This document shows positions 43,873 to 64,000 of a stretch of DNA of 64,000 nucleotides, in pieces (positions within the stretch are counted from its first letter, which is position 1; every line of letters starts with the position of its first letter). The stretch spans positions 1 to 64,000 of the forward strand of contig JARKQY010000007.1 of NCBI GenBank assembly GCA_029974635.1. Direction: 5' to 3'. Origin of the DNA: Bacillota bacterium (GTDB lineage: Bacteria > Bacillota > UBA4882 > UBA8346). The notes beneath the pieces are model-generated. The model searched no databases. It saw only the letters and a program-made list of their open reading frames with translations, and was not told the origin of the DNA. The position numbers were made by a program, and so were the translations under genes.

Positions 43873-45216
43873 ATGTTTTTGATAGCGTCAATCATCCTGG
43901 TATCTATTGCAATACTGGTTGTGATACTCAACCCCAAAGAAGAAATCAATCTCTGGGCGGGCGCATGCATATTCGTAAATGGAATCGTTTTTTCCCTGGA
44001 CCATTTCATGTTCTATGAGTACAAGATAATATATTTCATCTTATATCCATATACCATATTAATGTTTAGCGTTAGTTATACGGGACTGTATATGGTACCA
44101 GAAAGATTAAAACGCCGATTTGCCGGAATCGCCCTAATTCCCGTGGCCATAATACATGCAATTTATACGATTCATCCGGATTTTCGCATTATTCTTCCCT
44201 ATTTCCCTTACTGGATCTTATGTTTCTTTACTGCCAATGCCTTGTTGTTATATTCTTATATAACCACACGCAGCCCGGAGATCAAGCGGAATCGGTTACT
44301 AACTTGTGTAATCGTAGTCCCAATTACAACCATCGATTTGTCTTACAATTTTTATCACGGGATCACCCAAAAATATATCCCGAATTTTGAATTTTTTACG
44401 GTAATAACTTTTAGTATCATTTTTACCTTTATCCTTTTTAAATATGATATTCTGGGCGCTTCCCTTAAATTGGAAAAGTCTCGGCTTAATAGTACGATTC
44501 AGGCTATGTCCTCGGGAACGGCCTTTTTAAACCATACGATAAAAAATGAGATTCAGAATATTTGGATGTATATGAATAAGATTGAGTCCGGGCTTTCTAA
44601 AAATCAAGCTTTACAAGATAATTTTTATTTCATACGGAACTCCACCAATCATCTGATGTCAATGGTATCCCGAATCCAGGAACAAATGCAACAAATTGTG
44701 CTGCAGGAGGCTCCCACCCGCTTAATTGACATTGTCGAGCAGTCCATAAACCTTATAACTCCTTCTCTACAAGCAAAAAATATTACCATTGTCAGAGAAT
44801 ATGCTCTTGACGTTACCCTGTTATGCGACCCGATTCATATCTGTGAAGTTCTATGCAATATCTTAAAGAATGCCATTGAAGCCATGAATCCCGGGGGAGC
44901 AATTACCATTCAAATCAGCCGGACCAATAAATGGCTTGTTTTAGCCATTCAGGATAACGGGGCTGGGATTCCCAAAGAGAACTTAGCTAGGGTATTCGAC
45001 CCTTTTTTTTCGACCAAAAACCAACGCGTAAATTATGGTCTGGGTTTGTCTTATTGTTATAATGTAATGCAACAACATGGGGGCCTGATTGATATTTATA
45101 GTGAAGAAGGAAAGGGAACAACAGTATTTCTCAACTTTAGGCAAAAAAAATCACTGCATTTAAATTCGGTAAAAAACTCGAAATCGGTTCCAATTCGAAT
45201 GATCGAACCCCGGTAA
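43873..45216 (+). CDS. Membrane histidine kinase (7TM-type sensor), paralog 1
   Basis: The 447-residue protein has about seven N-terminal hydrophobic helices (1-195), then a kinase core. The phosphoacceptor candidate is His in LNHTIKNEIQNI (about 218-229). ATP-binding boxes are N (NILKNAIEAM), G1 (DNGAGIP), F (FDPFFSTKN) and G2 (GLGLSY). The H box is not the classical HExxxP type. GTAAGGAGG lies upstream of the ATG. It forms a tandem pair with the next gene, six bases or so after its stop. No response regulator is adjacent, so targets are unknown. Confidence 0.9.
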   Translation: MFLIASIILVSIAILVVILNPKEEINLWAGACIFVNGIVFSLDHFMFYEYKIIYFILYPYTILMFSVSYTGLYMVPERLKRRFAGIALIPVAIIHAIYTIHPDFRIILPYFPYWILCFFTANALLLYSYITTRSPEIKRNRLLTCVIVVPITTIDLSYNFYHGITQKYIPNFEFFTVITFSIIFTFILFKYDILGASLKLEKSRLNSTIQAMSSGTAFLNHTIKNEIQNIWMYMNKIESGLSKNQALQDNFYFIRNSTNHLMSMVSRIQEQMQQIVLQEAPTRLIDIVEQSINLITPSLQAKNITIVREYALDVTLLCDPIHICEVLCNILKNAIEAMNPGGAITIQISRTNKWLVLAIQDNGAGIPKENLARVFDPFFSTKNQRVNYGLGLSYCYNVMQQHGGLIDIYSEEGKGTTVFLNFRQKKSLHLNSVKNSKSVPIRMIEPR

Positions 45217-45264
45217 ATATACATGTTTTTCATTATACACCTTTTTATCAGGGGGGTAATCTGG

Positions 45265-46635
45265 GTGCAAGCTATAGCAATTTCGCTATTGTGGATAATT
45301 GCTTTAATAACATTAATGATTAACCCAAAAAACAATGCCAATCGTTGGGGTAGTGGTTGCATTTTCCTAAGCGGATTGACTTTTTTATTGGAACAATTCC
45401 ATTGGCATGAGTACCAAATCCTCATCACCATACTCTATCCCTATTCACTTTTAATGTTTAGCATGAGTTTTACGGGATTATGTTCGGGTCCGCCGTATGT
45501 AACAAAATATTGGAGGTGGATCTTTCTTCTTCCCCCGCTTTTTTTATTGTTACTCTATTACTTTGTTCAAATTGGCTACTTTAATTTTCCCTTATTCCCA
45601 TACTGGATACTTTATATCATAGTTGCCGACTTCCTGTTGATTTATTCCTATATAGCTACGAAAAACCTTGAAATCAAACAAGAAAGATTAAAAATATCCT
45701 TTATCGTCTTGCCGGTCACTATTTTTCAACTCGGCTACGCCATATATGCCGAGATTACCCATAATAGCATCTTTGCTTTAAATTTATACAACTGTTTATT
45801 GTTTGTTATTCTTTTTGGCATCATATTGATAAAGCATGGATTATTAGGCAGCCGGTTAAGATTGGAAAGGCTCCGGCTGACCAGGGCGATGCGAGCGCTG
45901 AATTCCGGAACATACTTTATAAACCATATCATGAAAAATGAGCTGCTAAACATGGCGATCTGTCTTGAAAATATTGAAGGCCTCACGAAAAACTCCACCC
46001 AAGATTTGAGAGAGAACCTCCAGTTTATCCGCAACTCGATTAACTGTATGCTGGCAATGGCAACTAGAATCAGCGGACCAATCCGCGAGATATCCTTAAA
46101 CGAAACTCCAACCCGGCTAATCGGTATTATTGAACAATCATTAAACCGGACAGCTGCTATGCTCCAATCGAAAAATATTACTGTTACGAAAGAATACTTA
46201 GCCGATACGGTTCTAATTTGCGATCCGGTCCATCTACAAGAGGTTTTTTTTAATAGTATTAAAAACGCAATCGAAGCCATGGATGAAAACGGTAATTTAG
46301 CCATTAGAACCGACCGGGATACTCAATGGCTTATTGTAACCATCAACGATACCGGAGTTGGTATTTCCGCAGCAAATCTGGCCCGGATATTCGATCCGTT
46401 TTTTTCCACCAAAAATTGTGGGGAAAATTTAGGCCTGGGATTGTCCTATTGTTATCAAGTAATGCAAAAGCATGACGGACTAATCAACGTTCATAGCAAG
46501 ACCAATAAGGGCACCACAGTATTTCTGAATTTTAGCGCCTCCAAAATAAGCGTTCCATGTACAGACGAGAACTATTCAGATCAATTCCGGTCAATGAAGA
46601 ACTCATTAATCCGGATTCTCGATTGCAAACCATAA
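45265..46635 (+). CDS. Membrane histidine kinase (7TM-type sensor), paralog 2
   Basis: This 456-residue protein is homologous to the upstream kinase over its full length (membrane region, His in FINHIMKNELLNM, NSIKNAIEAM, NDTGVGI, FDPFFSTKN, GLGLSYCYQVMQ). The GTG at 45265 is preferred over the ATG at 45223. GGGGGG lies 8 bases upstream, and from this start the distance to the shared NPK motif equals that in the paralog (19 residues). Recent gene duplication with drift is likely. Confidence 0.88.
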   Translation: MQAIAISLLWIIALITLMINPKNNANRWGSGCIFLSGLTFLLEQFHWHEYQILITILYPYSLLMFSMSFTGLCSGPPYVTKYWRWIFLLPPLFLLLLYYFVQIGYFNFPLFPYWILYIIVADFLLIYSYIATKNLEIKQERLKISFIVLPVTIFQLGYAIYAEITHNSIFALNLYNCLLFVILFGIILIKHGLLGSRLRLERLRLTRAMRALNSGTYFINHIMKNELLNMAICLENIEGLTKNSTQDLRENLQFIRNSINCMLAMATRISGPIREISLNETPTRLIGIIEQSLNRTAAMLQSKNITVTKEYLADTVLICDPVHLQEVFFNSIKNAIEAMDENGNLAIRTDRDTQWLIVTINDTGVGISAANLARIFDPFFSTKNCGENLGLGLSYCYQVMQKHDGLINVHSKTNKGTTVFLNFSASKISVPCTDENYSDQFRSMKNSLIRILDCKP

Positions 46636-47410: not shown

Positions 47411-47597
47411 CTTTCTCTTTATGTAACATTATTGATGATTGTTTCTATATTTCATCTTGACTTAATTTATTTTATGAAAAAGATGGTTTTATTTACCGGC
47501 TGGATTTGCTAAAATGAGTCTATGAACTATGGCTATTATCTCAAAGATCAAATATGCTTAAATGGCAATAAAAATAAACAAAACCGGGGTAGAAGCG

Positions 47598-48656
47598 ATG
47601 CAAAAGACAGCACCTGCTTTCATCGATGCCGTAAAATGGGAAAATGATCGGCTGATCATTCTGGAACAGACCAAACTCCCCTTGGAAACTTCTTATGAAG
47701 AACTTACCAACGTCCACCAAGTATGGGATGCGATTTATCATTTGAAGGTTCGCGGAGCGCCGGCGATTGGAATCGCTGCCGGATACGGTCTTTATCTCTC
47801 CGTCATGAACTTTGAAACTGAAGATTTTAATCAGTTTTGGAACGAGTTTCAAAAGCACTCCGACTATCTTGCCTCATCCCGGCCAACGGCGGTCAACCTT
47901 TTTGGGACTCTGGAACGAATGAAACGGCTGGTCCTGGCAGCTCAAGGAAAAACCGTCAGCCAAACCAAACAGCTGATTTTAGAAGAAGCCCACCGTGTTA
48001 AGACGGAGAATTGCGATATCTGCCAGGGAATCGCCGAATATGGCCTGCAGTTCATCAAGGACGGGATGGGCATTCTAACCCATTGCAATGCTGGTTCCAT
48101 TGCCACGGCCTCACGCTACGGCACCGCCTTGGGACCCATTTATCTGGCCCATGAGAAAGGTATGAAGATCAAAGTATATGCTGACGAAACCCGGCCTTTG
48201 AATCAGGGATCGCGATTAACCTCCTGGGAACTGCAAGAAGCGGGCATTGATGTTACTTTAATCTGTGATAATATGGCCGCCATGGTCATGGCCGAAGGAA
48301 AGGTTCAAGCGGTCTTCGTCGGCTGTGACCGGGTTGCCCGAAACGGCGATTTTGCCAATAAAATCGGGACCTACGGCGTGGCCATATTGGCTAAAGAACA
48401 TCATATTCCCTTTTACGTCGCTGCTCCTTCTTCCACAATTGATATGGCCACCGCCTCCGGTAAGGAAATCACCATCGAACAGCGAAAAGCGGAGGAGATC
48501 ACCTGTGGCTACGGCAAACGCACCGCTCCGGAAGGCATAAAAGTATACAACCCGGCCTTTGATGTCACGCCGGCTAGATATGTGACTGCAATTATCACTG
48601 AAAAAGGCAACCTTTACCCGCCCTATGAGACCGGGTTAACCAAACTCTTCGGCTAA
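47598..48656 (+). CDS. mtnA: Methylthioribose-1-phosphate isomerase
   Basis: The enzyme converts 5-methylthioribose 1-phosphate to 5-methylthioribulose 1-phosphate in methionine salvage. Its 352 residues, together with AVKWENDRLIILEQ, VRGAPAIGIAAGYG, the catalytic Cys in ILTHCNAGSIATA and the catalytic Asp in LICDNMAAMVMA, fit MtnA. The ATG at 47598 is preferred on family fit; the ATG at 47562 adds 12 residues without a ribosome site. A RuBisCO-like gene follows on the same strand, which points to the next pathway step. Confidence 0.95.
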   Translation: MQKTAPAFIDAVKWENDRLIILEQTKLPLETSYEELTNVHQVWDAIYHLKVRGAPAIGIAAGYGLYLSVMNFETEDFNQFWNEFQKHSDYLASSRPTAVNLFGTLERMKRLVLAAQGKTVSQTKQLILEEAHRVKTENCDICQGIAEYGLQFIKDGMGILTHCNAGSIATASRYGTALGPIYLAHEKGMKIKVYADETRPLNQGSRLTSWELQEAGIDVTLICDNMAAMVMAEGKVQAVFVGCDRVARNGDFANKIGTYGVAILAKEHHIPFYVAAPSSTIDMATASGKEITIEQRKAEEITCGYGKRTAPEGIKVYNPAFDVTPARYVTAIITEKGNLYPPYETGLTKLFG

Positions 48657-48673
48657 TGAGCAGAAACCAAAAA

Positions 48674-48765
48674 ATGAATTTTGACAGGATTTATAGGATT
48701 CATAGGATTATTAAGTCCTGATCGATTTTAATCCTATAAATCCCGTTAATCCCGTCTAAAAATGC
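48674..48765. repeat. Imperfect inverted repeat between mtnA and the RuBisCO-like gene
   Basis: GACAGGATTTATAGGATT (about 48680-48697) is complementary, with mismatches, to AATCCTATAAATCCCGTTAAT (about 48729-48749). TAATCC/AAATCCC motifs recur at 2835 and 2931. This suggests a dispersed AT-rich repeat family. Confidence 0.5.
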
Positions 48766-48859
48766 TCTTTGACCAGCTTGAGCGGCATTTATTTCGTTTT
48801 TCTTCCATTTTGACAAAACTTTGGAGTTAAGGGTTCAAAACCCGGTGGAGGCGTTATAT

Positions 48860-50002
48860 ATGGAATATCCTTCCATTATCAAGTTGTCTGGTGAAAGAAT
48901 TATAATAGACTACTGTCTCAACGGCAGTTGCGATGAAGCCAAATCCATGGCGCGCAATATCTGCCTTGAGCAAACCGTCGAATTTCCCGAAGAATTTATT
49001 CCTGAAGGGGTTATTCGGGATCAAATCGTCGGAAAGCTTGAATCGTTAGAATCCATCTCCCCCCGGCGCTTCCTCGCCAAAATCAGTTATGCGGTGGAGT
49101 GTAGCGGTTCCGAGTTAACCCAACTGCTCAATTTGGTCTTCGGAAATAGCAGTATCAAACCAGGCATCCGGGTTGAGCGTCTGGAATTACCCGGTAGCCT
49201 TTACCGGTTGTTTCACGGCCCCCGTTTTGGCCGGAAAGGTTTACGCGACTTGCTGGGCATACCGGAACGTCCCTTACTATGCACTGCGTTAAAGCCAATG
49301 GGATTATCCCCCCGGCAGTTGGCTGATTTGGCATATCAATTTGCCTTGGCCGGAATTGATATGATTAAAGATGATCATGGATTAGCCGATCAACCTTTTG
49401 CTCCCTTCCGGGAACGGGTGGAGCTTTGTGCTGCGGCTGTTTCCAAAGCCAACCAGGAAACCGGCAGAAAATGCATTTATATACCCAATATCACCAGTCC
49501 TGCCCATCTGATAATGAATCGAGCGCGCTATGCCAAGCAAGCAGGCGCAGGCGGCCTTCTGATCTCGCCAGGACTGGTGGGAATGGATATCATACGGGAA
49601 CTAGCCGAAGATGACGGATTGGCATTGCCAATTATCAGCCATCCGGCCTTCCAGGGCAGTTTTGTCATTCATCCGGATCACGGAATATCCCACTTCGCTC
49701 TCTTTGGACAGTTAGTACGCCTTGCGGGAGCCGATGCTACCATCTTTCCCAATTATGGCGGCAGGTTCTCCTTCAGCCGAGATGAATGCCAGAATATTGT
49801 CGCCGGGACCACCGTCGCCATGGGACCTTTAAAACCCATTTTCCCCGCCCCGGGAGGCGGTATGAATCTACAGCGCATCCCGGACATGTTGGAAGTATAC
49901 CAGCGTGATGTTATCTTTTTAATCGGCGGGGGTCTGCATCAACATGGTCCTGATTTGATTGAAAACTGCAGGTACTTTTTACATATGGTTTCCGGGCTTT
50001 AA
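48860..50002 (+). CDS. RuBisCO-like protein (form IV)
   Basis: The 380-residue protein has the RuBisCO large-subunit fold but is not a carboxylase. The RuBisCO base is kept in TALKPMGLSP, and the KDDE metal site reads IKDDHGLADQ. Loop 6 is replaced by NYGGRFSFSRDE, and GGGLHQHGPDLIENC ends the barrel. The KDDHGLADQ form resembles RuBisCO-like proteins that act on methylthioribulose 1-phosphate (MTA-isoprenoid shunt of Rhodospirillum rubrum), not classical MtnW. This assignment is from memory. Its neighbour mtnA makes that very substrate. The ATG at 48860 follows GGTGGAGG by 9 bases; the TTG at 48821 and GTG at 48845 are weaker. Confidence 0.9.
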   Translation: MEYPSIIKLSGERIIIDYCLNGSCDEAKSMARNICLEQTVEFPEEFIPEGVIRDQIVGKLESLESISPRRFLAKISYAVECSGSELTQLLNLVFGNSSIKPGIRVERLELPGSLYRLFHGPRFGRKGLRDLLGIPERPLLCTALKPMGLSPRQLADLAYQFALAGIDMIKDDHGLADQPFAPFRERVELCAAAVSKANQETGRKCIYIPNITSPAHLIMNRARYAKQAGAGGLLISPGLVGMDIIRELAEDDGLALPIISHPAFQGSFVIHPDHGISHFALFGQLVRLAGADATIFPNYGGRFSFSRDECQNIVAGTTVAMGPLKPIFPAPGGGMNLQRIPDMLEVYQRDVIFLIGGGLHQHGPDLIENCRYFLHMVSGL

Positions 50003-53422: not shown

Positions 53423-53713
53423 ATGGCCGCCATTAATCTCAGTTTACAAGTCATACCCAAAGTCCCGGACGAAAGAACTTATGAGGTGGTCGATAAAGTT
53501 ATTGCCCATATCGCCTCCTCCGGGGTCAAATACGAAGTGGGTCCGATGGAGACCACCATGGAGGGTGAACTGGATCAACTGCTTGTCATTGTGAAAGAGG
53601 CTCAGGAGATCTGTGTCCGGGCAGGAGCTACCCGGATACTCTCGGTTGTTAAAATTGATTATAAGCCGGAAGGTGTAACCATTGCCGAAAAAATCGGTAA
53701 ATATCGCCAATAA
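53423..53713 (+). CDS. Thiamine-binding protein, MTH1187/YkoF-like
   Basis: The 96-residue cytoplasmic protein has the PF01910 thiamine-binding fold (LSLQVIPKVPDERTYEVVDKVIAHI, VGPMETTMEGELDQLLVIVKEAQ, RILSVVKIDYK). AGGAGG lies just before the ATG. As the first gene behind the TPP riboswitch it probably binds thiamine or its pyrimidine part and assists the transporter. Its end overlaps the permease gene by 32 bases. Confidence 0.92.
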   Translation: MAAINLSLQVIPKVPDERTYEVVDKVIAHIASSGVKYEVGPMETTMEGELDQLLVIVKEAQEICVRAGATRILSVVKIDYKPEGVTIAEKIGKYRQ

Positions 53714-54488
53714 ATTGGTCCCTTGGCTGTTTTTAATTCTGATTGGATTGTTATGGCAATTAGTAGTTGACCGGGGCTTGATTCAACGGTTCATATTGCC
53801 GTCTCCCTGGGATATCCTGGCAACTTTACTAAGGATTTTCCCGGAAATAAAGGTTCATTTAATGACCACTATCCGTGAAGCCTTGCTTGGACTTTTTATT
53901 GCGGTGATACTTTCCTTGACACTGGCTCTTTTAATGGATAGTTTTCCATTGATGAAAAAGGCGGTTTATCCGGTTTTAATCGTTTCCCAGACTATCCCCG
54001 CCATCGTCTTGGCTCCGCTATTTGCGCTATGGTTCGGTTTCGGTGAACTTCCGAAAATAATTATCGTTGTGTTGGTTTGCTTTTTTCCGGTTGTTATCAG
54101 CCTAATGGATGGTTTGAATTCGGTGGATCCGGACATGATTAACCTGTTCCGCTCCATGGGCGCGGGACAATGGCATCTTTTCCGCCATTTAAAACTGGCG
54201 GCATCCATGACTAACTTCTTTTCCGGTTTACGGATCGCGGCCACCTACAGTATAATGGGAGCGGTTATCGCCGAGTGGCTCGGCGGCATAACCGGCCTAG
54301 GGGTTTATATGATCCGGGTCAAACATTCATATGCCCTGGATAAAGTATTTGCAGTAATTTTAATTATTGTCGCGTTAAGTATGCTAATTTTTAAAGGAAT
54401 TGCATGGTCGGAAAATTTATTGATGCCGTGGCGCCGCCTATTAAATAAAAATCAATCGGAGGTAAATAGCAATGGCCAAACTAAATAA
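53682..54488 (+). CDS. thiX: ABC permease for thiamine precursor (ThiX-like)
   Basis: The 268-residue membrane protein has six hydrophobic helices and the EAA loop of ABC importers, seen in FRSMGAGQWHLFRHLKLAASMTNFFSGL. It belongs to the taurine/nitrate/NMT1 type of permeases. The start is TTG, supported by GGAAGG about 8 bases upstream and by overlap with the preceding gene. With the two following genes it should import a hydroxymethylpyrimidine-type precursor, as in ThiXYZ; the exact ligand is inferred. Confidence 0.88.
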   Translation: MPKKSVNIANKLVPWLFLILIGLLWQLVVDRGLIQRFILPSPWDILATLLRIFPEIKVHLMTTIREALLGLFIAVILSLTLALLMDSFPLMKKAVYPVLIVSQTIPAIVLAPLFALWFGFGELPKIIIVVLVCFFPVVISLMDGLNSVDPDMINLFRSMGAGQWHLFRHLKLAASMTNFFSGLRIAATYSIMGAVIAEWLGGITGLGVYMIRVKHSYALDKVFAVILIIVALSMLIFKGIAWSENLLMPWRRLLNKNQSEVNSNGQTK

Positions 54489-55461
54489 GTCTTTTTTAGT
54501 AATTATCCTGATAACCACAGTTATCTGGAGTAATGGAATTCTGGCAAAACCGTCCGGGACGAAAATAAGTATCCTGCTTGACTGGGTGCCAAATACCAAT
54601 CATACTGGTCTTTATGTGGCTAAAGAATTAGGATATTACCGGCACGAAGGGATCGAGGCACATATCCTCCAGCCGTCGGAAAGCGATAGCGCTGCTCTGG
54701 TGGCTGCTAATAAAGCCGATTTCGGTATCAGTTACCAGGAACAAGTAACTTATGCCCGGACCGCCAATTTTTCCCTTCCAGTCAAGGCAATCGCTGCAAT
54801 TATTCAGCATAACACCTCGGGCTTCGCGGCGCCTCTCGGCAAAGGAATCAAATCTCCCGCGGACTTTGTCGGCAAAACATATGGCGGCTGGGGTTCACCC
54901 ATGGAAGAAGCGGTGTTGAAAGGGTTGATGCAAAAATACCGGGTTGATTTCGCCAAACTGCGGATGGTGAATATCGGAGCCGCTGATTTCTTTGCCAGCG
55001 TTGGAAAGGATGTTGATTTTTCATGGATATACTACGGCTGGGACGGAGTCGCCGCTCAACTGCGTAATTTTCCCATTACTTTCATCAAGCTCCGTGATGT
55101 AGACCCACGCTTGGATTATTATACACCAGTAATCATCGCCAATGAAAACTTGATACGAAAAAATCCCGCATTAATTAAAAAATTTATGAAAGCTACCTCT
55201 TCAGGTTACGTTTTCGCCATACATAATCCGGAGAAAGCAGCCCAAATCCTCACCAAATACGCGCCGGAAATCGATAAAAAGCTAGCGGTAGCCAGCCAAA
55301 AATATCTGGCGGGAGAATACCAAGCCGAAGCGCCCCGCTGGGGAGAAATGAGACTAGCTGTTTGGCAGAATTACAGCAATTGGATGTTCGAGAATGGATT
55401 ATTAAAAAAGCGCCTGGATGCGAAAGAGGCTTTTAGCAATGAATTTTTGCCCGCAAAATAA
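54472..55461 (+). CDS. thiY: NMT1/THI5-like binding protein (ThiY-like)
   Basis: The 329-residue periplasmic-type binding protein has a signal peptide (1-25, cleavage after ILA-K) and no lipobox Cys, then the NMT1/THI5 domain (LLDWVPNTNHTGLYVAKELGYY, ISYQEQVTYAR, GWGSPMEEAVLKGLM). ThiY proteins bind formylaminopyrimidine or related pyrimidine precursors. GGAGG is 9 bases upstream. It overlaps the permease gene by 17 bases. The missing lipid anchor is unusual for a monoderm. Confidence 0.9.
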   Translation: MAKLNKSFLVIILITTVIWSNGILAKPSGTKISILLDWVPNTNHTGLYVAKELGYYRHEGIEAHILQPSESDSAALVAANKADFGISYQEQVTYARTANFSLPVKAIAAIIQHNTSGFAAPLGKGIKSPADFVGKTYGGWGSPMEEAVLKGLMQKYRVDFAKLRMVNIGAADFFASVGKDVDFSWIYYGWDGVAAQLRNFPITFIKLRDVDPRLDYYTPVIIANENLIRKNPALIKKFMKATSSGYVFAIHNPEKAAQILTKYAPEIDKKLAVASQKYLAGEYQAEAPRWGEMRLAVWQNYSNWMFENGLLKKRLDAKEAFSNEFLPAK

Positions 55462-56194
55462 AATAAAACTGGCAGTAAACAATATCAAAAAAACCTTTGA
55501 AGATACTCCGGTCATTAAGAATGTGTCAATGGAGTTGCATGAAGGAGAGTTCGTTTCGTTAATCGGCTTGAGCGGCAGCGGGAAAAGTACGATTTTTAAC
55601 ATTATCGCGGGTCTGTTGTTACCGGATGAAGGGTCCGTCATCATCGACGGCGAGGAGTTCACCGGTAAAACAGGACGGGTCAGCTATATGTATCAAAAGG
55701 ATTTGCTGCTCCCCTGGAAAAATATTATTGACAATGCAAGTCTGCCGTTGGTGATTAAAGGCTACCGGAAAAAAGACGCCCGGCAAGAAGTGTCCGGATA
55801 TTTTCCAACATTCGGTCTGGCTGGCTTTGAGCATAAATATCCTTTTCAACTATCGGGCGGAATGCGCCAGCGGGCGGCCCTGATGCGTACCTTCTTTTTT
55901 TCCAAGGATATCATGCTGCTGGATGAACCTTTTGGAGGGCTGGATGCCATTACCCGGAGCCGGATGCAGGATTGGCTCCTTGAAGTATTGCCCGCCCTGA
56001 ACTCTTCCGTCTTATTCATCACCCATGATATTGAGGAGGCTATTCTATTATCGGACCGGATCTATATCCTGACCGATCGTCCAGCACGGGTTAAAGAGGA
56101 ACTCCGGGTCCCGCTCCCTAAAGCCCGGACTCGGGAAATAACCACCACCGGGGAATTCAACGAGATCAAAAAATATATTTTTAGTATCTTGTAG
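55439..56194 (+). CDS. thiZ: ABC ATPase for thiamine precursor (ThiZ-like)
   Basis: The 251-residue nucleotide-binding subunit has Walker A GLSGSGKST, Q-loop YQKDLLLPW, signature LSGGMRQR, Walker B IMLLDEPFGGLD and His switch FITHDIEEA. It energises the importer. The ATG at 55439 is preferred because AAGAGG lies 9 bases upstream; an ATG at 55418 is also possible. It overlaps the ThiY gene in a different frame and is the last gene of the riboswitch-controlled operon. Confidence 0.93.
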   Translation: MNFCPQNKIKLAVNNIKKTFEDTPVIKNVSMELHEGEFVSLIGLSGSGKSTIFNIIAGLLLPDEGSVIIDGEEFTGKTGRVSYMYQKDLLLPWKNIIDNASLPLVIKGYRKKDARQEVSGYFPTFGLAGFEHKYPFQLSGGMRQRAALMRTFFFSKDIMLLDEPFGGLDAITRSRMQDWLLEVLPALNSSVLFITHDIEEAILLSDRIYILTDRPARVKEELRVPLPKARTREITTTGEFNEIKKYIFSIL

Positions 56195-56717
56195 TCTTAA
56201 ACAAGCGCGTCGCGATGGTCCTTTTAATGTCAATAATATTTTGTTGCTCTTCCATGATAAACGCCATTCCCGCGACATACAAAGCCATTCCGGTATGACA
56301 AACACTTGATAATATCTGTGCGAACTTGATATAAGCCGGTGATATTTTGATGTTTTATTTATTTTTTTGTTGAAATTAGCATCCCCATTATCAAATGGTC
56401 CAGATTGATTAAAAATATTACATTCTTATTCTTTTCTTTATTATTATGAGTCAATCAAATATGATATAATTCTTTAAAAAACACGACGATTTATTTTCCG
56501 CCAATTTCCTGCAATTTTCGTTATTAATCGACAAAACCAGGCAAAGTAAGTTAATTCTTAATATTTACATATATATTTCATTGTGTTATAATCGTTTAAA
56601 ACATCACCTTTTTTGTAAAAATAATGGAAATATCACTACTGTTTGTAAAATTTTATTTGCTCGATATTTTTTAGCCAGATCTGGAAAACTATATCATGGA
56701 AATAATAGTTTAAGGTT
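56195..56717. other. Gene-free stretch before the cluster at the right end
   Basis: A minus-strand frame of about 35 codons (complement of about 56196-56300) has no ribosome site and is not called. No terminator of the thiamine operon was seen. A promoter for the next operon is at 56564-56592. The rest is AT-rich without visible structure. Confidence 0.55.
56564..56592 (+). promoter_or_regulatory. Promoter for the right-end gene cluster
   Basis: TTTACA (56564-56569), a 17-base spacer and TATAAT (56587-56592), with TG two bases further upstream, give a good sigma-A-type promoter. The 5' leader would be about 120 bases. Confidence 0.65.
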
Positions 56718-57425
56718 ATGATCAAAATGCGAACGAAGCCTAAAAATAAAAAGGGATTTTTAATTGTTTGCGAGGGGGTCAGCGGCTCCGGAAAAACGGA
56801 GATCGTTGGTCAAATTTTTGATTTTCTCGTGAAAAAAAATTACCCGTGCTTCCTGTTTGAGTGGAATTCCAATCATCTGGTACGAAAGTTAATTCTTAAA
56901 TTGAACAAAAATCGTCTTTTAAATTCCACAATCTATAGTATTATCCAATGGACCGGTTTTATTTTTGATTATCTTTTTAAAATTATTCCCCGTCTTCGGT
57001 CAAATATTATTGTGATCGCCGACCGGTATATTTATACGGGATTGACCCGGGATGCTACAAACGGCTCCCCTAACTGGTTTGGTTGGTTGATACATCATAC
57101 GGTTCGAAAACCTGATTTCCTTGTATTTCAGGATACGGACCTTGAATTATGTTATGAGCGTATTAAAATTCGTGGCAAGAAACTGTTTCATCCCAATCAA
57201 GTCATATTAAATAACAAGCTTTTGAAAAATAAGGATTTATACTACTTACGGAAAATCCGCCGGGAATACCTGAAGTTGTTTTCGAATCCAACGGTAATGG
57301 GCTACATAAAGTTTGTTTTTGCAAAAGAGCATAATTCGGATACCTTGCTAAAGATAGAAACTTTATTAAAACAAAAACTCAATGAGAATTATTTACCAAG
57401 TTCTCTTACTGAAAAAGTGGTCTAG
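56718..57425 (+). CDS. Thymidylate-kinase-like P-loop kinase
   Basis: This is a 235-residue P-loop nucleotide or metabolite kinase: Walker A EGVSGSGKTE (about 19-28) and DRYIYTGLTRDAT, the dTMP-kinase DRY motif. It has a Lys/Arg-rich region (RIKIRGKKLFHPNQ) where the LID lies. It is longer and more basic than housekeeping Tmk, so it may phosphorylate a special substrate of the cluster. It leads the operon, overlapping the next gene's upstream region. AAGG precedes the ATG closely. Confidence 0.8.
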   Translation: MIKMRTKPKNKKGFLIVCEGVSGSGKTEIVGQIFDFLVKKNYPCFLFEWNSNHLVRKLILKLNKNRLLNSTIYSIIQWTGFIFDYLFKIIPRLRSNIIVIADRYIYTGLTRDATNGSPNWFGWLIHHTVRKPDFLVFQDTDLELCYERIKIRGKKLFHPNQVILNNKLLKNKDLYYLRKIRREYLKLFSNPTVMGYIKFVFAKEHNSDTLLKIETLLKQKLNENYLPSSLTEKVV

Positions 57426-57456
57426 AGGTATAGATTCTTTGAGTGAGGGTGGTTCT

Positions 57457-58413
57457 TTGCGAATTGCGGCGATTGAGATCGGAACGAATTCCACCAAATT
57501 TCTCAATGTTGCTGTAAAAGGTGGCTCTTATGAGGTCATCGAAAAAAGCAGTATTGTAAACCGGTTGAGTTCGGGAATGTATCTCCAGGGTCACCTTTCA
57601 ACCGAAAATGTGGAAAATACCGTTCAAATTATCGGAGATTATATCCATAAAACTGTAAAAACCGGTTCGAAACTGATATCCATTTTCTCCACCAGTGTTT
57701 TACGGGATGCAGGCCGTGACAACTTATTGGTGAAAAGAATCAAAGACCTTTATAATGTGACTATTGAGATTATTAGTGGTGAACAAGAGGCATATCTGGC
57801 TTTTAAAGGCTGTCACAGCCTGTTGAACAGCGGACGGGACGGTGCCGCAGTTCTCGATATCGGCGGCGGAAGTACTGAATTAACCGTCGGCAATGAAATA
57901 GAGATCAAGCAGCGTTTCAGCTTAAATATCGGGGCAGTCCGGTTAACGGAGATGTTTCTCCGGAGCGATCCGGTTTCCGCGATGGAACTGAATGAAATGA
58001 AGCTATTCCTCCGGCAGCATCTTGCTGACAATTTAAACATTTCCGGTTTAAATGGTTTGGTGGGAGTTGGCGGAACAATTAAAACATTGGGTACCATATC
58101 TGCCGGTATCGATTATCACCGGGAGGCGGAGATAAATGGTTTGTCTCTCGCCCAGAAGCAAGTCGAAAAGATCTGTCAAAACTTGATAGCCCAAAAACTT
58201 GATGAACGGCGAACCGTTACCGGTCTGAATCCCAAGAGAGCCGATGTAATTGTTGCAGGTGTTACCATTCTTTTGGAGATAATGGAGTATTTGGATGCCG
58301 TTGAAATAATCATTAGTTCTAAAGGTGTCATCGAAGGGTTCATTGAGGAATTTATATCAAAAAATATTATTATTGATGCAGCCGCATGGAAAGAGGGTAT
58401 TAAGCGTGTTTAG
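57457..58413 (+). CDS. Ppx/GppA-family phosphatase, short form
   Basis: The 318-residue sugar-kinase-fold phosphatase has MRIAAIEIGTNSTKFL and DIGGGSTELTVGN, the two phosphate loops, with STSVLRDAGRD and the catalytic Glu in ISGEQEAYLAFKG. It lacks the C-terminal HD domain of full GppA. The family cleaves polyphosphate or pppGpp. The TTG start at 57457 gives the family N terminus and has GAGGG 7 bases upstream; a TTG at 57439 is the alternative. It overlaps the next gene by 8 bases, so they are co-translated. Confidence 0.85.
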   Translation: MRIAAIEIGTNSTKFLNVAVKGGSYEVIEKSSIVNRLSSGMYLQGHLSTENVENTVQIIGDYIHKTVKTGSKLISIFSTSVLRDAGRDNLLVKRIKDLYNVTIEIISGEQEAYLAFKGCHSLLNSGRDGAAVLDIGGGSTELTVGNEIEIKQRFSLNIGAVRLTEMFLRSDPVSAMELNEMKLFLRQHLADNLNISGLNGLVGVGGTIKTLGTISAGIDYHREAEINGLSLAQKQVEKICQNLIAQKLDERRTVTGLNPKRADVIVAGVTILLEIMEYLDAVEIIISSKGVIEGFIEEFISKNIIIDAAAWKEGIKRV

Positions 58414-59197
58414 GGCCTATCTTGAATTTGCTAAAAAGTCATTTATGAACAACCTGGTATACCGGCTCGATTTCTTTGTTGGAATAATCAACACCCTGAT
58501 TATGATCTTTGTCAATATCGCCATTTGGAAGGCCATATACGAAGAAGAACAAGTACTGGGGGGAGTTCAGTTCCGGGTTTTAATCACTTATATCATTCTG
58601 GCCTTTTTAATGCAATGTATTTATACCATGGAAGAATATATTATCGAATCCAAAGTCAGAACCGGTTTTATATCTTCCGACCTGATCAAACCCATCGATT
58701 TCAGATTGTATCTATTCTCTTACAATTTGGGAACTTTGGGATTCCGGATGATATTTCAATTACTGCCGATGTTGGTCATGGCTGTCTTTTTATTCAAACT
58801 GCTACCTCCCTTTTCAATATCCATGACATTTTATTTTTTCATCAGCGCGGCCTTGGGTTTCCTGGTCTTATATAATTTAAATTTCCTGGCCTGGATAAGC
58901 TCTTTCTGGTTTTATTGGACATTTAGCCTCGTCACTATTAAGGACGCCGCTATCATGATTCTATCCGGGGCGCTGCTTCCTTTATGGTTCATGCCGCAAT
59001 GGATGGTGGATTTCATAAAATACACCCCCTTCGACTCCATCTATTACACGCCCATTTCAATTTATCTTGGCCAGATGCCCGCCAATGAAATCACCATGAA
59101 TCTGCTGCGCCAAGTGTTATGGGTCGTAATTTTGTTTGGAATCGGGCATGTATTGTGGCGAACCGCCACCCGGCGGCTGGTAGTCCAAGGAGGTTAA
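58406..59197 (+). CDS. ABC-2 exporter permease 1
   Basis: This 263-residue membrane protein has six hydrophobic helices and belongs to the uncharacterised ABC-2 permeases of the COG4587/DUF990 type (family assignment from memory). The start is GTG (58406), overlapping the Ppx stop; GAGGG lies about 10 bases upstream. It pairs with the next gene and the ATPase at 61.9 kb. Export of a polar or lipid-like product is typical of this class. Confidence 0.85.
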   Translation: MFRAYLEFAKKSFMNNLVYRLDFFVGIINTLIMIFVNIAIWKAIYEEEQVLGGVQFRVLITYIILAFLMQCIYTMEEYIIESKVRTGFISSDLIKPIDFRLYLFSYNLGTLGFRMIFQLLPMLVMAVFLFKLLPPFSISMTFYFFISAALGFLVLYNLNFLAWISSFWFYWTFSLVTIKDAAIMILSGALLPLWFMPQWMVDFIKYTPFDSIYYTPISIYLGQMPANEITMNLLRQVLWVVILFGIGHVLWRTATRRLVVQGG

Positions 59198-59199
59198 CG

Positions 59200-60030
59200 A
59201 TGGAAAAGCATAATATTCTGGAATTAATTCAATTGTTCTTTAAATATGCGAAGATCGGCGTCAAAACAACGTTGGAATATAAATTCGACCGGATTTTTAT
59301 TACCATCGCCATTTTTTGCCGGGAAATGATCAGTATCACCATTATGTATTTGATATTGTTACGGTTTGTCCGTATCAAAGGCTGGGAACTTAACGAGATG
59401 CTATTCCTTTATAGTTTTTTATTCCTGTCATACAGCCTGTTTGTCTTTTTGTTTACCGGCATCAGAGACTTTGAAGATATGGTGTATTGGGGGCAGTTTG
59501 ACCGGATTTTACTCCGGCCGGTGGGCTTAATGTTTCAGATTGTTGCTTCCCGGGTGGACTTCCCGGCAACATTGGGACATGGCATTGTGGGGATCATTTT
59601 ATTCATAAACACCGCATTTTCCGTGGGAATCGACTGGAATCTCCAAAACACCGCCTATTTTATCTCTGCCCTTATCGGAGGGGCCATCATCCAGGCTTCG
59701 ATATTTATGGTTTCTTCCTGTTTCAGTTTCTGGGCGATAAAAACCATGAACTTGCGTAACATGATCTTTTTTAACGCCAGAAGATTTGCGGGGTACCCCA
59801 TTAGTTTCTACCCCTCCTTTATTCAAAAATTGCTCGTTTATATCATTCCCTTCGCGTTTGTAAATTATTTTCCAGCCCAGTATTTCTTACGAAAACCTGA
59901 CTTGGCTGGATTTTGGAATGGCTATTTATATTTAACCCCCTTAGTGGGAGCAGCCTTGTTTACTTTGGTCTATTTATTCTGGAAAAAAGGGTTGAAACAC
60001 TACGTGAGCACCGGCAATTCAATGTACTGA
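59200..60030 (+). CDS. ABC-2 exporter permease 2
   Basis: The 276-residue six-helix permease is of the COG3694-like type, partner of permease 1. AAGGAGG lies 4-5 bases ahead of the ATG at 59200, within the end of the previous gene. Segments IRDFEDMVYWGQFDRILLRPVG and YFPAQYFLRKP resemble the family. Export of the cluster's product is inferred. Confidence 0.87.
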   Translation: MEKHNILELIQLFFKYAKIGVKTTLEYKFDRIFITIAIFCREMISITIMYLILLRFVRIKGWELNEMLFLYSFLFLSYSLFVFLFTGIRDFEDMVYWGQFDRILLRPVGLMFQIVASRVDFPATLGHGIVGIILFINTAFSVGIDWNLQNTAYFISALIGGAIIQASIFMVSSCFSFWAIKTMNLRNMIFFNARRFAGYPISFYPSFIQKLLVYIIPFAFVNYFPAQYFLRKPDLAGFWNGYLYLTPLVGAALFTLVYLFWKKGLKHYVSTGNSMY

Positions 60031-60135
60031 TTGCTAGTTATCATTGACAACATGGATGATCCCCATCTGTTATAGTTCAAATCAATAATTGGCTCTTACA
60101 GAGTCTATTTAATCATTAAAAAGGGAGTTGTTTGT

Positions 60136-60408
60136 ATGCAGAGGCAAGAAATTGAAATGAAGGTATGTGAAAGTATCAAGGGAATCAGCCAATTCGGAGC
60201 TGAGGAAGGAATCGGATTGGAAAAGGACCTGCGGGAGAATTACGGAATTGATTCCATCGCTTTAGTAACCCTCCTGGTTGAGTTGGAAGGCTCATTCGGA
60301 ATCACTTTCGACAGCAGTATGTTAACTTATGATAATTTTTCCACCGCCGGAGCTATAGCGGAATATATTTCTAAACAGTTGGAGGCTGCCACCAATGCCC
60401 CGGTTTGA
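60136..60408 (+). CDS. Acyl carrier protein 1
   Basis: The 90-residue phosphopantetheine carrier carries the attachment Ser40 in YGIDSIALVTLLVELE. Acidic helices and the FGITFDSSMLTYDNFSTAGAIAEYI ending are typical. It overlaps the next gene by 14 bases. In BtrH-like systems such carriers hold the acyl or aminoacyl group. GGGAG precedes the ATG. Confidence 0.92.
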   Translation: MQRQEIEMKVCESIKGISQFGAEEGIGLEKDLRENYGIDSIALVTLLVELEGSFGITFDSSMLTYDNFSTAGAIAEYISKQLEAATNAPV

Positions 60409-61543
60409 GGCCGCGCCCAAAGGTTCCGTATTAAACGTGCCGCGTTATTTTGAACCATTTGTCAATGATTGCTTTCATAACGCGTATGCCACTGTATTAT
60501 TACATATGGGATTAGACCCTCATATTATACTGGCGGATTACTTATCATTTCTATATGATCCCCAAACCGAATATATCGGGGTAAACTATTTCCACCGTTA
60601 TTCAACCTCCGTGGAATTTACGGAAGAAGAGTTGAATACATCGTTGGAATTTGTATATCAGCCAGGGACCAAGGTATTTGAACCATCCAGTTTTACTCAG
60701 ACGAACTTACGTTACCAAGATAAAGTACAAATCAATATGTATATTCATGAAGATCAGGAAGTAGCCACTTCCCGGTTGAAGGAGTTAATTTCCGATCGAC
60801 AACCGGTAATTGCGGTGGTTGATTTGTACCATATGCCTTATCACCGGGCGTATCAAAAAGAACACGGCTTACATTGCGTGGTTATTACCGGGTATGATGA
60901 AGCGGAAGGCTGTTACGAACTCTTTGATAGATACACTTTATCCAGCAGCGATTTTGATGGAAAGCTCCCCATGAATGAGGTTCATGCCGGCCGCAGCTCC
61001 AATAACCCGGTGAGTAATCCCATGGCTGGGGATTTCCAACGCCCCATCCGTAATTTATGGATGGAAATTAATGTTGCGCCCCAATTTCAAATCACCGAAG
61101 CGAAGATCAGGTCCATTCTGGCCGAGAGTTGCCGGCGGATGTATGGTGAAACGAAAATACTCGGTCATGATTGCGGCTTTTCAAGATTGGAAGCCCTGCG
61201 CGGCCGGTTGCAATCAAAAAAAGCAACTTCTCTGGATGACTATCACTTATATTTATATAAAACTTATTACAACATGTTTTTTAAGTATATTGCCCGGAGC
61301 CGGCAGCGCTTCAAGGCGTTTATCAACAAAGTTCAAGATTATTTGCCGGAGAATCTGATAGCTGAAAGCTCTCAGTTGCTGACCGATTCCGCGAAGCATT
61401 GGGATATTGCTGCGAATGTATCGCTAAAATTGGGAATCGCCAAAAAAATTGAATTAATCGATGACCTGGATCGTCACTTGCAATCGATTAGTAATGTTGA
61501 ACGTCAGGCAATCGATAAATTCTATGCTTTTTGCGGTAAATAA
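60395..61543 (+). CDS. BtrH-like (butirosin H N-terminal domain) acyltransferase
   Basis: The 382-residue protein is a papain-like-fold transferase. The catalytic set is Cys26 (NDCFHNAYATVLLHMG), His160 (EHGLHCVVITGYDE) and Asp178 (ELFDRYTLS). Residues 1-210 form the BtrH_N domain; 220-382 are helical and match the usual C-terminal partner domain of this family (DUF4872-like; from memory). BtrH moves an acyl group from a carrier protein onto an aminoglycoside. Being sandwiched between two carrier proteins, this one should transfer a carrier-bound acyl group to an unknown acceptor. GGAGG is about 9 bases upstream. Confidence 0.88.
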   Translation: MPRFEAAPKGSVLNVPRYFEPFVNDCFHNAYATVLLHMGLDPHIILADYLSFLYDPQTEYIGVNYFHRYSTSVEFTEEELNTSLEFVYQPGTKVFEPSSFTQTNLRYQDKVQINMYIHEDQEVATSRLKELISDRQPVIAVVDLYHMPYHRAYQKEHGLHCVVITGYDEAEGCYELFDRYTLSSSDFDGKLPMNEVHAGRSSNNPVSNPMAGDFQRPIRNLWMEINVAPQFQITEAKIRSILAESCRRMYGETKILGHDCGFSRLEALRGRLQSKKATSLDDYHLYLYKTYYNMFFKYIARSRQRFKAFINKVQDYLPENLIAESSQLLTDSAKHWDIAANVSLKLGIAKKIELIDDLDRHLQSISNVERQAIDKFYAFCGK

Positions 61544-61584
61544 TTATTGACAAATAATTATTAAGAATCCGGAGGTTTATTGGG

Positions 61585-61851
61585 ATGGAAATAAAGGATA
61601 AAATTTTGGAGAGTATTGCCATGGTATTGCGAATCAATACGGAAACCGTGGCCAATCATGGCGCCGATTTGCCATTGAACCTGATTGGTATGGATTCCAT
61701 CAACTGTATTGATATAGTGGTAGCGGTTGAAAATGAATTTAATATCAATTTTAATGATGATGAGTTATTAATGGATAATATCAATACTGTCAATAAATTA
61801 TGTAATTCGGTGGCTCAAAAATTGGGACTGGAACAAGCATTTGCAGTATAA
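61585..61851 (+). CDS. Acyl carrier protein 2
   Basis: This 88-residue carrier has the phosphopantetheine Ser38 in GMDSINCIDIVVAVENEF and the acidic IDI helix, ending in VAQKLGLEQ. It is diverged from the first carrier, so the two may hold different acyl groups or serve different steps. GGAGG lies upstream. It lies 41 bases after the BtrH-like gene. Confidence 0.92.
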   Translation: MEIKDKILESIAMVLRINTETVANHGADLPLNLIGMDSINCIDIVVAVENEFNINFNDDELLMDNINTVNKLCNSVAQKLGLEQAFAV

Positions 61852-61880
61852 ATTCCTGCCGGGGCAAAGGGGGAGCAGTT

Positions 61881-62930
61881 GTGGCCTTAATTGAAGTTAC
61901 CAATCTAGTCAAGGATTATAAGATCAGTGTAAAGAAAAAAGGGTTGTTGGGTGCTGTAAGCAGTCTGTTTATACCCGAGTACACTTATAAACGGGCGGTT
62001 GATGCTATTGATTTTGCTATTGATTCCGGCGAGGCCGTGGGTTTTATCGGTCCCAACGGCGCCGGAAAATCAACCACCGTCAAAATGCTGACCGGCATTT
62101 TAGTGCCGACTGCAGGCGCGATTCGGGTAAGCGGTTTGTGTCCATATAAGGACCGTAAGAAAAATGCCGCCAATATCGGAGTGGTATTCGGGCAACGCAC
62201 TCAACTATGGTGGGATCTGCCTGCAAGTGATACTTTCGATCTTCTAAAATATATCTATAAGATCCCGGATGATGTTTATCGGCGCAATATGGAACTTTTC
62301 AATGACTTGCTGGGCTTGCAGGATTTCTTTGCGACCCCGGTGCGGCAACTCAGTCTCGGCCAGCGGATGCGGGCCGATATTGCGGCGTCGCTAGTCCATG
62401 ATCCCAATATCGTATTATTCGACGAACCTACCATCGGATTGGATGTTATCGCCAAGGAAAACATCCGTGAATTTATTAATTATATCAATAAAGAAAAGGA
62501 CACCACCATATTATTCACCACTCATGATATGGTGGATATTGAAAAAACTTGCCGGAGAATGCTGATTATCGATAAGGGCGTGATCATTTACGACGGATCG
62601 GTAGCGGAAATTAAACACCGGTTCGGCAAAACCCGGACTTTAGTGGTGGAGTTCAGCGAAAAATACAGTAGCATTCATCTGCCCCCCGGAGTTGAAGTGG
62701 TGAATGAGCAAGAGCATAAAAAGTGGCTCCGGTTTAGCAAAGATGAAGTACAGGTTTCAAATTTAATCGCCAAACTGACTCAGGATTATAATATTATCGA
62801 TCTCACCGTTCAGGAACCTGAGATTGAGGGAATTATCCGGGAGATCTACCAAAAGGGAATCGATTTTGATAAAGAAAATGAAAAGCAGCTATCCGGTATT
62901 GAAGTTGCTTCCGGGTTAAGTACTGATTAA
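61881..62930 (+). CDS. ABC-2 exporter ATPase
   Basis: The 349-residue ATPase has Walker A GPNGAGKSTT, Q-loop VFGQRTQLWWDLP, signature LSLGQRMRAD, Walker B IVLFDEPTIGLD and His switch FTTHDMVD. An N-terminal insertion KKGLLGAVSSLFIPEYTYK marks the COG4586-like exporter class that goes with COG4587/3694 permeases. The GTG start follows GGGGGAG. It completes the exporter with the two permeases upstream. Confidence 0.93.
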   Translation: MALIEVTNLVKDYKISVKKKGLLGAVSSLFIPEYTYKRAVDAIDFAIDSGEAVGFIGPNGAGKSTTVKMLTGILVPTAGAIRVSGLCPYKDRKKNAANIGVVFGQRTQLWWDLPASDTFDLLKYIYKIPDDVYRRNMELFNDLLGLQDFFATPVRQLSLGQRMRADIAASLVHDPNIVLFDEPTIGLDVIAKENIREFINYINKEKDTTILFTTHDMVDIEKTCRRMLIIDKGVIIYDGSVAEIKHRFGKTRTLVVEFSEKYSSIHLPPGVEVVNEQEHKKWLRFSKDEVQVSNLIAKLTQDYNIIDLTVQEPEIEGIIREIYQKGIDFDKENEKQLSGIEVASGLSTD

Positions 62931-63078
62931 ACCTCGTTCCCGCAAGTCAAAACAATTTTCCGCATGCCGCAGAAAAATTGGCCGGATCGGGTTTTCTACA
63001 AAATCCGTCAAGTCCATATTACAAGTAATTTTAAAGGTTACTTGCCGGATTCATGTTAAAATAAGAAGGTGCCCTTTA

Positions 63079-64000
63079 TGACATTTAATGAATATCTGCA
63101 ACATATTTTATCAATAAGTTATTATCCGGTTAGTTTCTCCGGGGATCAACCCGCGGTTCTCAACCGGTGGCTTGTTACCTCCCTGCAACGGGAAAAATGC
63201 GATCTATCAAATATTGAACCATCCCTTAATCAAAACTCGCGGTTGATTCTTCGAACCGAGGTTACCAGTTTGCCCAAACCGGAATTGGAATCCAATTGGC
63301 GTTATTATATTTCGGAAAACAAAGATTCCTTCAACAAGCCGTCTTCCCCGGAAACTATGTTCTCAACCGATGAAGATAAAGTTATCTATGCGTTATGCGG
63401 AGTATATTGTGAAGCCCAACAGGATTCCTTGCTGTTTTTAGGTTCGGTGGTACCGGCCCGAGTCTGGATCAACGGCCGGAACGTCTTTTCAAGTAATATC
63501 GGGCACCTGGTCAGGCCGCATCTTTTTGTATTTCCGCTCCAAAAGGGGATAAATACCATTTTAATCGAAAAACAGTTCTTTGCCGAATACACCGCGTTAA
63601 ATATCGGATCGCAGCATTTCTTGTTTACACTGAAGCCCTGCCGCTATCTGATGAATAACAAATTGAATCATTTTTTTGACAAAGAGCTTTTCTCCGACCT
63701 AAAACAATCCTACACCTTAGTTCCTGAAAAAACATTCTATCATCCCGGGGAAAAAATAAGGTTGTTAGTCTATCCGGGATGGTTTACCGGGGCTGACGAT
63801 AAAATTAAACTTCACATATCAAACGGGCTGGGCGAACCGATTCAGGATATTGATGCCCAAACCTCGGTTCCCGTTGAACTGGACTTGCCTGGGGAAATAA
63901 CAGGGTTGCTTCGGATTAAGGCCGAAAGTATCGCAAATTCCCGAAAAGCATCCGATGTATACATATTTAGCGGTGATTTTGCGCAAGCAAGGGAACAATT
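63079..64000 (+). CDS. Large protein, N-terminal part only, with carbohydrate-binding-like beta domain
   Basis: At least 307 residues are visible and the frame is open at the window edge. AAGAAGGTG lies 7-8 bases before the ATG. There is no signal peptide. The middle (about 105-190) reads like the jelly-roll sugar-binding domain of glycosidases: SVVPARVWINGRNVF, then HLFVFPLQKGINTILIEK. A later Ig-like part (FYHPGEKIRLLVYPGW to LPGEITGLLRIKAE) follows. A catalytic domain of alpha/beta-hydrolase or glycosidase type is expected downstream but cannot be seen. It probably belongs to the same cluster. Confidence 0.7.

Follow-up and report, generated by a model that had tools for sequence, protein, structure and literature searches.

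A gene cluster of ~20 kb in a Bacillota bacterium (GTDB lineage UBA4882; UBA8346) probably makes and exports a small molecule. On balance, we favor as its product an exported small amide built by thiotemplated assembly independent of nonribosomal peptide synthetases (NRPS). The window, meaning the whole stretch of DNA analyzed, is 64,000 nucleotides long and corresponds to bases 1-64,000 of contig 47 in a 4.29 Mb assembly (GCA_029974635.1). The contig continues beyond 64000, and when the sequence was read past that edge the cluster was found to end at ~77,319 on the same contig. Its gene content, its conserved linkage to the same partners in other genomes, its catalytic residues and the fold of its BtrH-like protein are shown by the analysis.

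Gene content and borders of the cluster

All open reading frames (ORFs) of the cluster lie on the + strand, and numbering past 64000 continues that of the window. The features are as follows.

56564..56592, +, candidate sigma-70 promoter (TTTACA-N17-TATAAT; 11/12 consensus matches, TG before the second hexamer)
56718..57425, +, thymidylate-kinase-like P-loop kinase, 235 aa (PF02223, 3.9e-12)
57457..58413, +, Ppx/GppA-type phosphatase, short form (PF02541, 4.1e-51)
58406..59197, +, ABC-2 permease 1 (PF06182, ABC2_membrane_6, 1.6e-18; start set by ribosome-binding site and Cohnella homologue)
59200..60030, +, ABC-2 permease 2 (PF06182, ABC2_membrane_6, 1.2e-45; perfect AGGAGGT upstream)
60136..60408, +, acyl carrier protein 1 (ACP1), free carrier protein (PF00550, 3e-11; phosphopantetheine site Ser40)
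60395..61543, +, BtrH-like papain-fold acyltransferase (PF14399, BtrH_N, 5.2e-17; Cys26-His160-Asp178)
61585..61851, +, ACP2, free carrier protein (PF00550, 2e-9; phosphopantetheine site Ser38)
61881..62930, +, ATP-binding cassette (ABC) exporter ATPase for both permeases (PF00005, 5e-25)
63069..64000 in the window, true end 65837 on the contig, +, CysHyd1, 922 aa (weak esterase matches)
65882-68668, +, CysHyd2, a 49% identical paralogue of CysHyd1
68661-69971, +, BtrK-type pyridoxal phosphate (PLP) decarboxylase (best solved relative BtrK)
69975-71357, +, ATP-grasp ligase (PreAtp-grasp and PGM1_C domains)
71482-73083, +, membrane-anchored 5'-nucleotidase
73099-74640, +, AMP-forming acyl ligase (fatty-acyl/feruloyl-CoA synthetase type)
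74637-75824, +, NTP_transf_5 protein
76156-77319, +, diverged BtrH-like protein (remote BtrH relative)

The nine genes that an initial annotation of the window had named are all present, in or close to the intervals assigned to them, on the + strand and with profile matches, and its view that one cluster combines a papain-like, carrier-dependent acyltransferase with two carriers and an exporter of its own is supported. The lack of acyl-loading enzymes in that annotation was an effect of the window edge. Extending the sequence to the right of 64000, as it had proposed, brought in the AMP-forming ligase, the ATP-grasp ligase and the BtrK-type decarboxylase. It had also placed the genes behind one promoter; the site at 56564-56592 is indeed the best-scoring in the region, but promoter-like sites in the region as a whole occur at chance level (21 found versus 21.6 expected).

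The genes that follow the CysHyd pair are on the same strand with short gaps or overlaps, apart from a gap of 331 bases before the diverged BtrH-like gene. Because thiamine-like genes flank both sides, the borders of the cluster were set at about 56.6 and 77.3 kb. On the left are a Thiamine_BP protein and ABC transporter genes (53423-56194), and on the right thiG/thiH/thiE/thiC/thiF-like genes (contig 77515-83331; L003:1515-7331). Relatives retain thiG-thiH-thiE-thiC without the cluster, which fits its insertion there; no clean empty insertion site was found among the thiamine regions of relatives, and searches of plasmids and viral contigs gave no match to the cluster. No condensation domain, ketosynthase or multidomain adenylation-carrier module was present among the cluster ORFs, only the stand-alone AMP ligase and free carriers. 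The genome has two phosphopantetheinyl transferase genes. The assembly is about 88% complete, so missing partner genes may lie in gaps.

Conservation in distant Bacillota

The first homologous cluster, that of Cohnella panacarvi, was exposed through an ATP-grasp search in Paenibacillaceae-like genomes. A scan of 84,980 species with an alignment of two BtrH proteins, those of the window and C. panacarvi, then gave 11 further loci, in Ruminiclostridium cellobioparum, R. hungatei, R. papyrosolvens, R. sufflavum, Cohnella panacarvi, Gorillibacterium timonense, Chengkuizengella axinellae and four metagenome-assembled genomes (MAGs). Several cultured strains are included, among Ruminiclostridium and Paenibacillaceae relatives.

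The exporter, 5'-nucleotidase, kinase, ACP1 and BtrH-like genes occur together in 10 of the 11 loci, bearing out the expectation of the initial annotation that these neighbors would be kept together in other genomes. The BtrK-type enzyme, AMP ligase and NTP_transf_5 protein accompany this core in nine loci, and the ATP-grasp ligase is present in most of those whose contig stretch is long enough (in Cohnella it lies just past the analyzed stretch and in R. sufflavum on another contig). The exporter ATPase is 64-72% identical in 10 loci, while permeases 1 and 2 are 57-69% and 61-69% identical, respectively, in nine loci and were detected by tblastn in a tenth. ACP1 has a tblastn match in every locus. 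A second carrier was found in eight, of the ACP2 type with about 50% identity in six and as weaker second-carrier matches in the other two. Identity to the window is 41-55% for BtrH and 53-61% for the BtrK-type enzyme, ATP-grasp ligase and 5'-nucleotidase, so the linkage has survived considerable divergence. The same genes standing side by side in distant Bacillota is more than chance.

Accessory genes vary between loci, for example a sulfotransferase and APS (adenosine 5'-phosphosulfate) kinase in Cohnella and a luciferase-like monooxygenase in a MAG, a pattern that, judged from gene content, is the one expected of a tailored secondary metabolite.

A separate search with BtrH alone in 399 genomes of the phylum and 10 of the family returned distant BtrH proteins only. 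Their loci, two of which hold polyketide synthase (PKS) and radical S-adenosylmethionine (radical-SAM) genes, were rejected as not being the same system. BtrH-family proteins with PKS and radical-SAM genes beside them occur in two genomes from the same family as the window (L008:9505-18306 and L009).

A BtrH-like transferase and two carriers

The BtrH-like protein scored 62.3 and 62.8 bits against PF14399, for which the curated cut-off is 29.7. Cys26, His160 and Asp178, the catalytic set named in the initial annotation, are invariant in all 15 aligned proteins, including the second copies in Ruminiclostridium. Its AlphaFold model has a mean pLDDT (predicted local distance difference test) of 90, and only three solved structures matched it significantly, AziU3 (azinomycin), CtaG (closthioamide) and CcbD (celesticetin), with AziU3 the best and CtaG at a fold E of about 1e-8. 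These fold relatives belong to carrier-dependent pathways, and the BtrH-like protein is a putative carrier-dependent acyltransferase. CcbD is a carrier-dependent Cys-His-Glu enzyme with a ping-pong mechanism, in which the acyl group passes from the carrier onto Cys and then to an amine (PMC12945683).

The carrier serines singled out in the initial annotation, Ser40 of ACP1 and Ser38 of ACP2, are located within conserved DS motifs. The diverged BtrH-like protein at the right end of the cluster is matched to BtrH by hhalign with 98% probability, and most members of its family have Gly where an alignment by eye places the Cys.

Loading enzymes and CysHyd proteins

The decarboxylase matches BtrK with an E of about 1e-105 and 357 bits, compared to 175 bits for diaminopimelate decarboxylase; its score to BtrK is twice that to any diaminopimelate decarboxylase. 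In butirosin biosynthesis, BtrK decarboxylates L-glutamyl-[ACP]. The cluster enzyme is of the BtrK type and is predicted from this likeness to act on a carrier-bound amino acid. The ATP-grasp ligase has the domain set of peptide ligases (PreAtp-grasp, PGM1_C).

With BtrK the closest solved relative by far, the cluster could instead contain a butirosin-type side-chain module, in which the ATP-grasp ligase, BtrK-type enzyme, one ACP and BtrH put an omega-amino acyl group on a glycoside, aminosugar or nucleoside made elsewhere, the other carrier and AMP ligase serving a separate acylation. CcbD (PMC12945683) and BtrH itself (PMC10318531) use aminosugar acceptors, and the kinase, the NTP_transf_5 protein and a GT-B-like protein present in several loci could serve a sugar or nucleoside acceptor. 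We consider this unlikely, as 2-deoxystreptamine, BtrO-like and BtrG-like genes are absent among the cluster ORFs, and the carrier that keeps a fixed place next to BtrH, along with the AMP ligase, is ACP1 and not ACP2.

The decarboxylase and AMP ligase also match the exosortase-A-associated models TIGR03099 (3.4e-110) and TIGR03098 (9.6e-70), both below cut-offs. The exosortase-A gene set likewise combines an ACP with an AMP ligase and a BtrK-type decarboxylase, and is suspected of acylating a cell-surface polymer. By the same logic the carriers and transferase studied here would decorate an exported glycan or teichoic-type polymer, and some loci do contain glycosyltransferases. However, the cluster lacks a polymerase, a flippase, an exosortase and any set of polymer glycosyltransferases, and the tailoring genes vary by species as in secondary metabolism, which makes polymer decoration highly improbable.

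The initial annotation described the gene at the window edge as a large beta-domain protein. It is large and its N-terminal part is beta-rich, but the description missed a central alpha/beta-hydrolase-like domain and the adjacent paralogue. CysHyd1 and CysHyd2, each about 925 aa and 49% identical, carry putative Cys nucleophile motifs (GSCMA and GTCMG, respectively) in this domain and have no evident signal peptide. Cys492 and His575 are kept in 4/4 proteins, Cohnella and Gorillibacterium copies included; an acidic residue was placed by eye at alignment column 546, and Pfam esterase matches are below cut-off. Relatives in two other genomes (G313, G082) have apparent signal peptides and the serine motif GSSMGG. 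They were rejected as cluster members, being secreted serine esterases with unrelated gene neighbors. A genome-wide scan with the two paralogues found nothing, but its peptide patterns were poor and this is not evidence of absence.

Kinase, phosphatases and a proposed pathway

The kinase and Ppx phosphatase were initially read as a pair that could prepare a phosphorylated acceptor. The kinase is conserved, with a homologue 40-50% identical in 10 of the 11 loci, the same 10 that hold the anchored 5'-nucleotidase. A Ppx homologue is present in only two (L084, L087), in both beside the exporter ATPase. This scarcity of Ppx would suit a separate housekeeping pair that merely lies upstream of the cluster. 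We find that quite unlikely, as the kinase is inside the cluster in 10 loci and Ppx, where present, directly adjoins the exporter. Since the conserved phosphatase is the membrane-anchored 5'-nucleotidase, a phosphate is more likely to mask the product until export than to prepare an acceptor, and, as read from gene content, a kinase inside the cell with a 5'-nucleotidase outside suggests phosphate-masked export.

Homology points to the following route to an exported amide. The AMP ligase would activate a carboxylic acid and load it onto ACP1, while the ATP-grasp ligase would put an amino acid on ACP2, where the BtrK-type enzyme would strip the alpha-carboxylate to leave an omega-amino acyl thioester, e.g. 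beta-alanyl or gamma-aminobutyryl (GABA). Decarboxylation on the carrier is proposed by analogy to BtrK and to BolN of bolagladin biosynthesis, for which it has also been proposed (PMC7756342). The BtrH-like enzyme, with His160 and Asp178, would then move the acyl group from ACP1 to Cys26 and on to the amine on ACP2 or a free amine, forming the amide. More speculatively, the CysHyd proteins might release the finished chain from its carrier, the kinase and NTP_transf_5 protein might add a phosphate or nucleotide, and the three-part ABC exporter might move the product out, with the anchored 5'-nucleotidase perhaps removing the phosphate outside. Ruminiclostridium has a PF00975 thioesterase and a second BtrH where CysHyd would stand, a point in favor of the proposal.

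A more elaborate version is doubtful and put forward tentatively: a phosphate- or nucleotide-masked amide made from two free carriers by a CtaG-like transferase, exported while still masked and activated outside by the dedicated anchored 5'-nucleotidase. In one branch, large descendants of secreted serine esterases would act as cytoplasmic cysteine acyltransferases on carrier thioesters.

Several points weigh against the amide proposal and its details. The BtrH-like protein is only 12-17% identical to its solved fold relatives, and its likeness to CtaG is at fold level. The ACP1, AMP ligase and NTP_transf_5 proteins of Chengkuizengella and one MAG are of a different type, so the acyl part is variable. 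Most loci lack CysHyd, and the structure that AlphaFold predicts for the Cohnella copy is poor (pLDDT 36). Gene order in the window is also unlike that of the other loci, though the blocks ACP1-BtrH and ACP2-ATPase persist, as do the ABC permeases, BtrK-ATP-grasp and AMP ligase-NTP_transf_5.

Other genes in the window

At 47562-50002, a gene that by eye resembles methylthioribose-1-phosphate isomerase precedes one for a RuBisCO-like protein, which suggests a methionine-salvage pair. Two similar membrane histidine-kinase-like proteins of 447 and 470 aa lie in tandem at 43873-46635 and are probably a duplication.

Comparison with known systems

NRPS-independent thiotemplated pathways were missed by automated genome mining until closthioamide (PMC8222398). 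Since closthioamide enzymes used as search baits have already revealed unexplored pathways of this kind (PMC8868522), we do not present the cluster as a wholly new kind. No product or description of this cluster family was found in the literature searched, a partial search in which an earlier bioinformatic listing may have been passed over.

For closthioamide, the prediction is that two carriers are loaded by an ATP-grasp enzyme and an acyl-CoA-synthetase-like enzyme and that CtaG connects both groups, with beta-alanine possibly coming from a decarboxylase (PMC6772006). The cluster has in common with the cta genes of Ruminiclostridium cellulolyticum two free carriers, an ATP-grasp ligase, an acyl-CoA-synthetase-like AMP ligase, a decarboxylase, a papain-like transferase of CtaG fold and the absence of NRPS modules. 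As this enzyme set is also present here, the same assembly logic is proposed. It differs in having a BtrK-type decarboxylase, putative Cys alpha/beta-hydrolases, a kinase, an NTP_transf_5 protein and an anchored 5'-nucleotidase; no CtaC-type (AANH) thioamide synthetase is encoded between 56,718 and 77,319, and no chorismate-derived hydroxybenzoic acid (HBA) gene is among the cluster ORFs.

In R. papyrosolvens an AANH-like gene, CtaC-like by motif, lies next to a pair of BtrH-like proteins with carriers and AMP ligases (L089:1871-8861), possibly another NRPS-independent thiotemplated cluster. R. papyrosolvens has further loci that hold BtrH genes, this one among them, and none was identified as closthioamide.

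With butirosin btrI/J/K/H the cluster shares a carrier, an ATP-grasp ligase, a decarboxylase nearest BtrK and a BtrH_N acyltransferase, the likeness to BtrI and BtrJ being by type. It has two carriers and an AMP ligase in addition, and no aminoglycoside (2-deoxystreptamine) genes, monooxygenase or gamma-glutamyl cyclotransferase are found in it. With CtaC and the aminoglycoside genes missing, the cluster cannot be assigned to closthioamide or to butirosin.

The lincosamide condensing enzymes CcbD and LmbD are carrier-dependent Cys-protease-like amide synthases with the fold of the BtrH-like protein, but they join a proline-type acyl group to a thiooctose, use Cys-His-Glu where the cluster protein has Cys-His-Asp, and come from an otherwise unrelated cluster. 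AziU3 of azinomycin biosynthesis gives the best fold match, at a sequence identity of just 16-17%, but comes from another pathway, in which it functions in aziridine formation.

Paenibacillaceae-like genomes (L060-L066, L072) repeatedly contain clusters in which one or two ATP-grasps are combined with a BtrK-type decarboxylase, ACPs and an ABC2_membrane_6 exporter, and a related ATP-grasp was found in 69 of 201 genomes of that family. The two-ATP-grasp clusters among them and related ones share with ours an ATP-grasp of a neighboring clade, the BtrK-type decarboxylase, an ACP2-like carrier and the same exporter family; a CysHyd-like protein or a diverged BtrH-like one is encoded in some of them. 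The block of BtrH, AMP ligase, NTP_transf_5, kinase and 5'-nucleotidase was not seen in the 20 kb around them.

The cluster would represent a conserved family of NRPS-independent thiotemplated clusters in Ruminiclostridium and Paenibacillaceae relatives. A masking scheme that can be tested follows from its fixed pairing of kinase and anchored 5'-nucleotidase. Should the esterase-derived CysHyd proteins, with their change from Ser to Cys, act on carriers, they would be chain-transfer enzymes of a new kind. By analogy, we propose that the cluster works like closthioamide and butirosin side-chain assembly.

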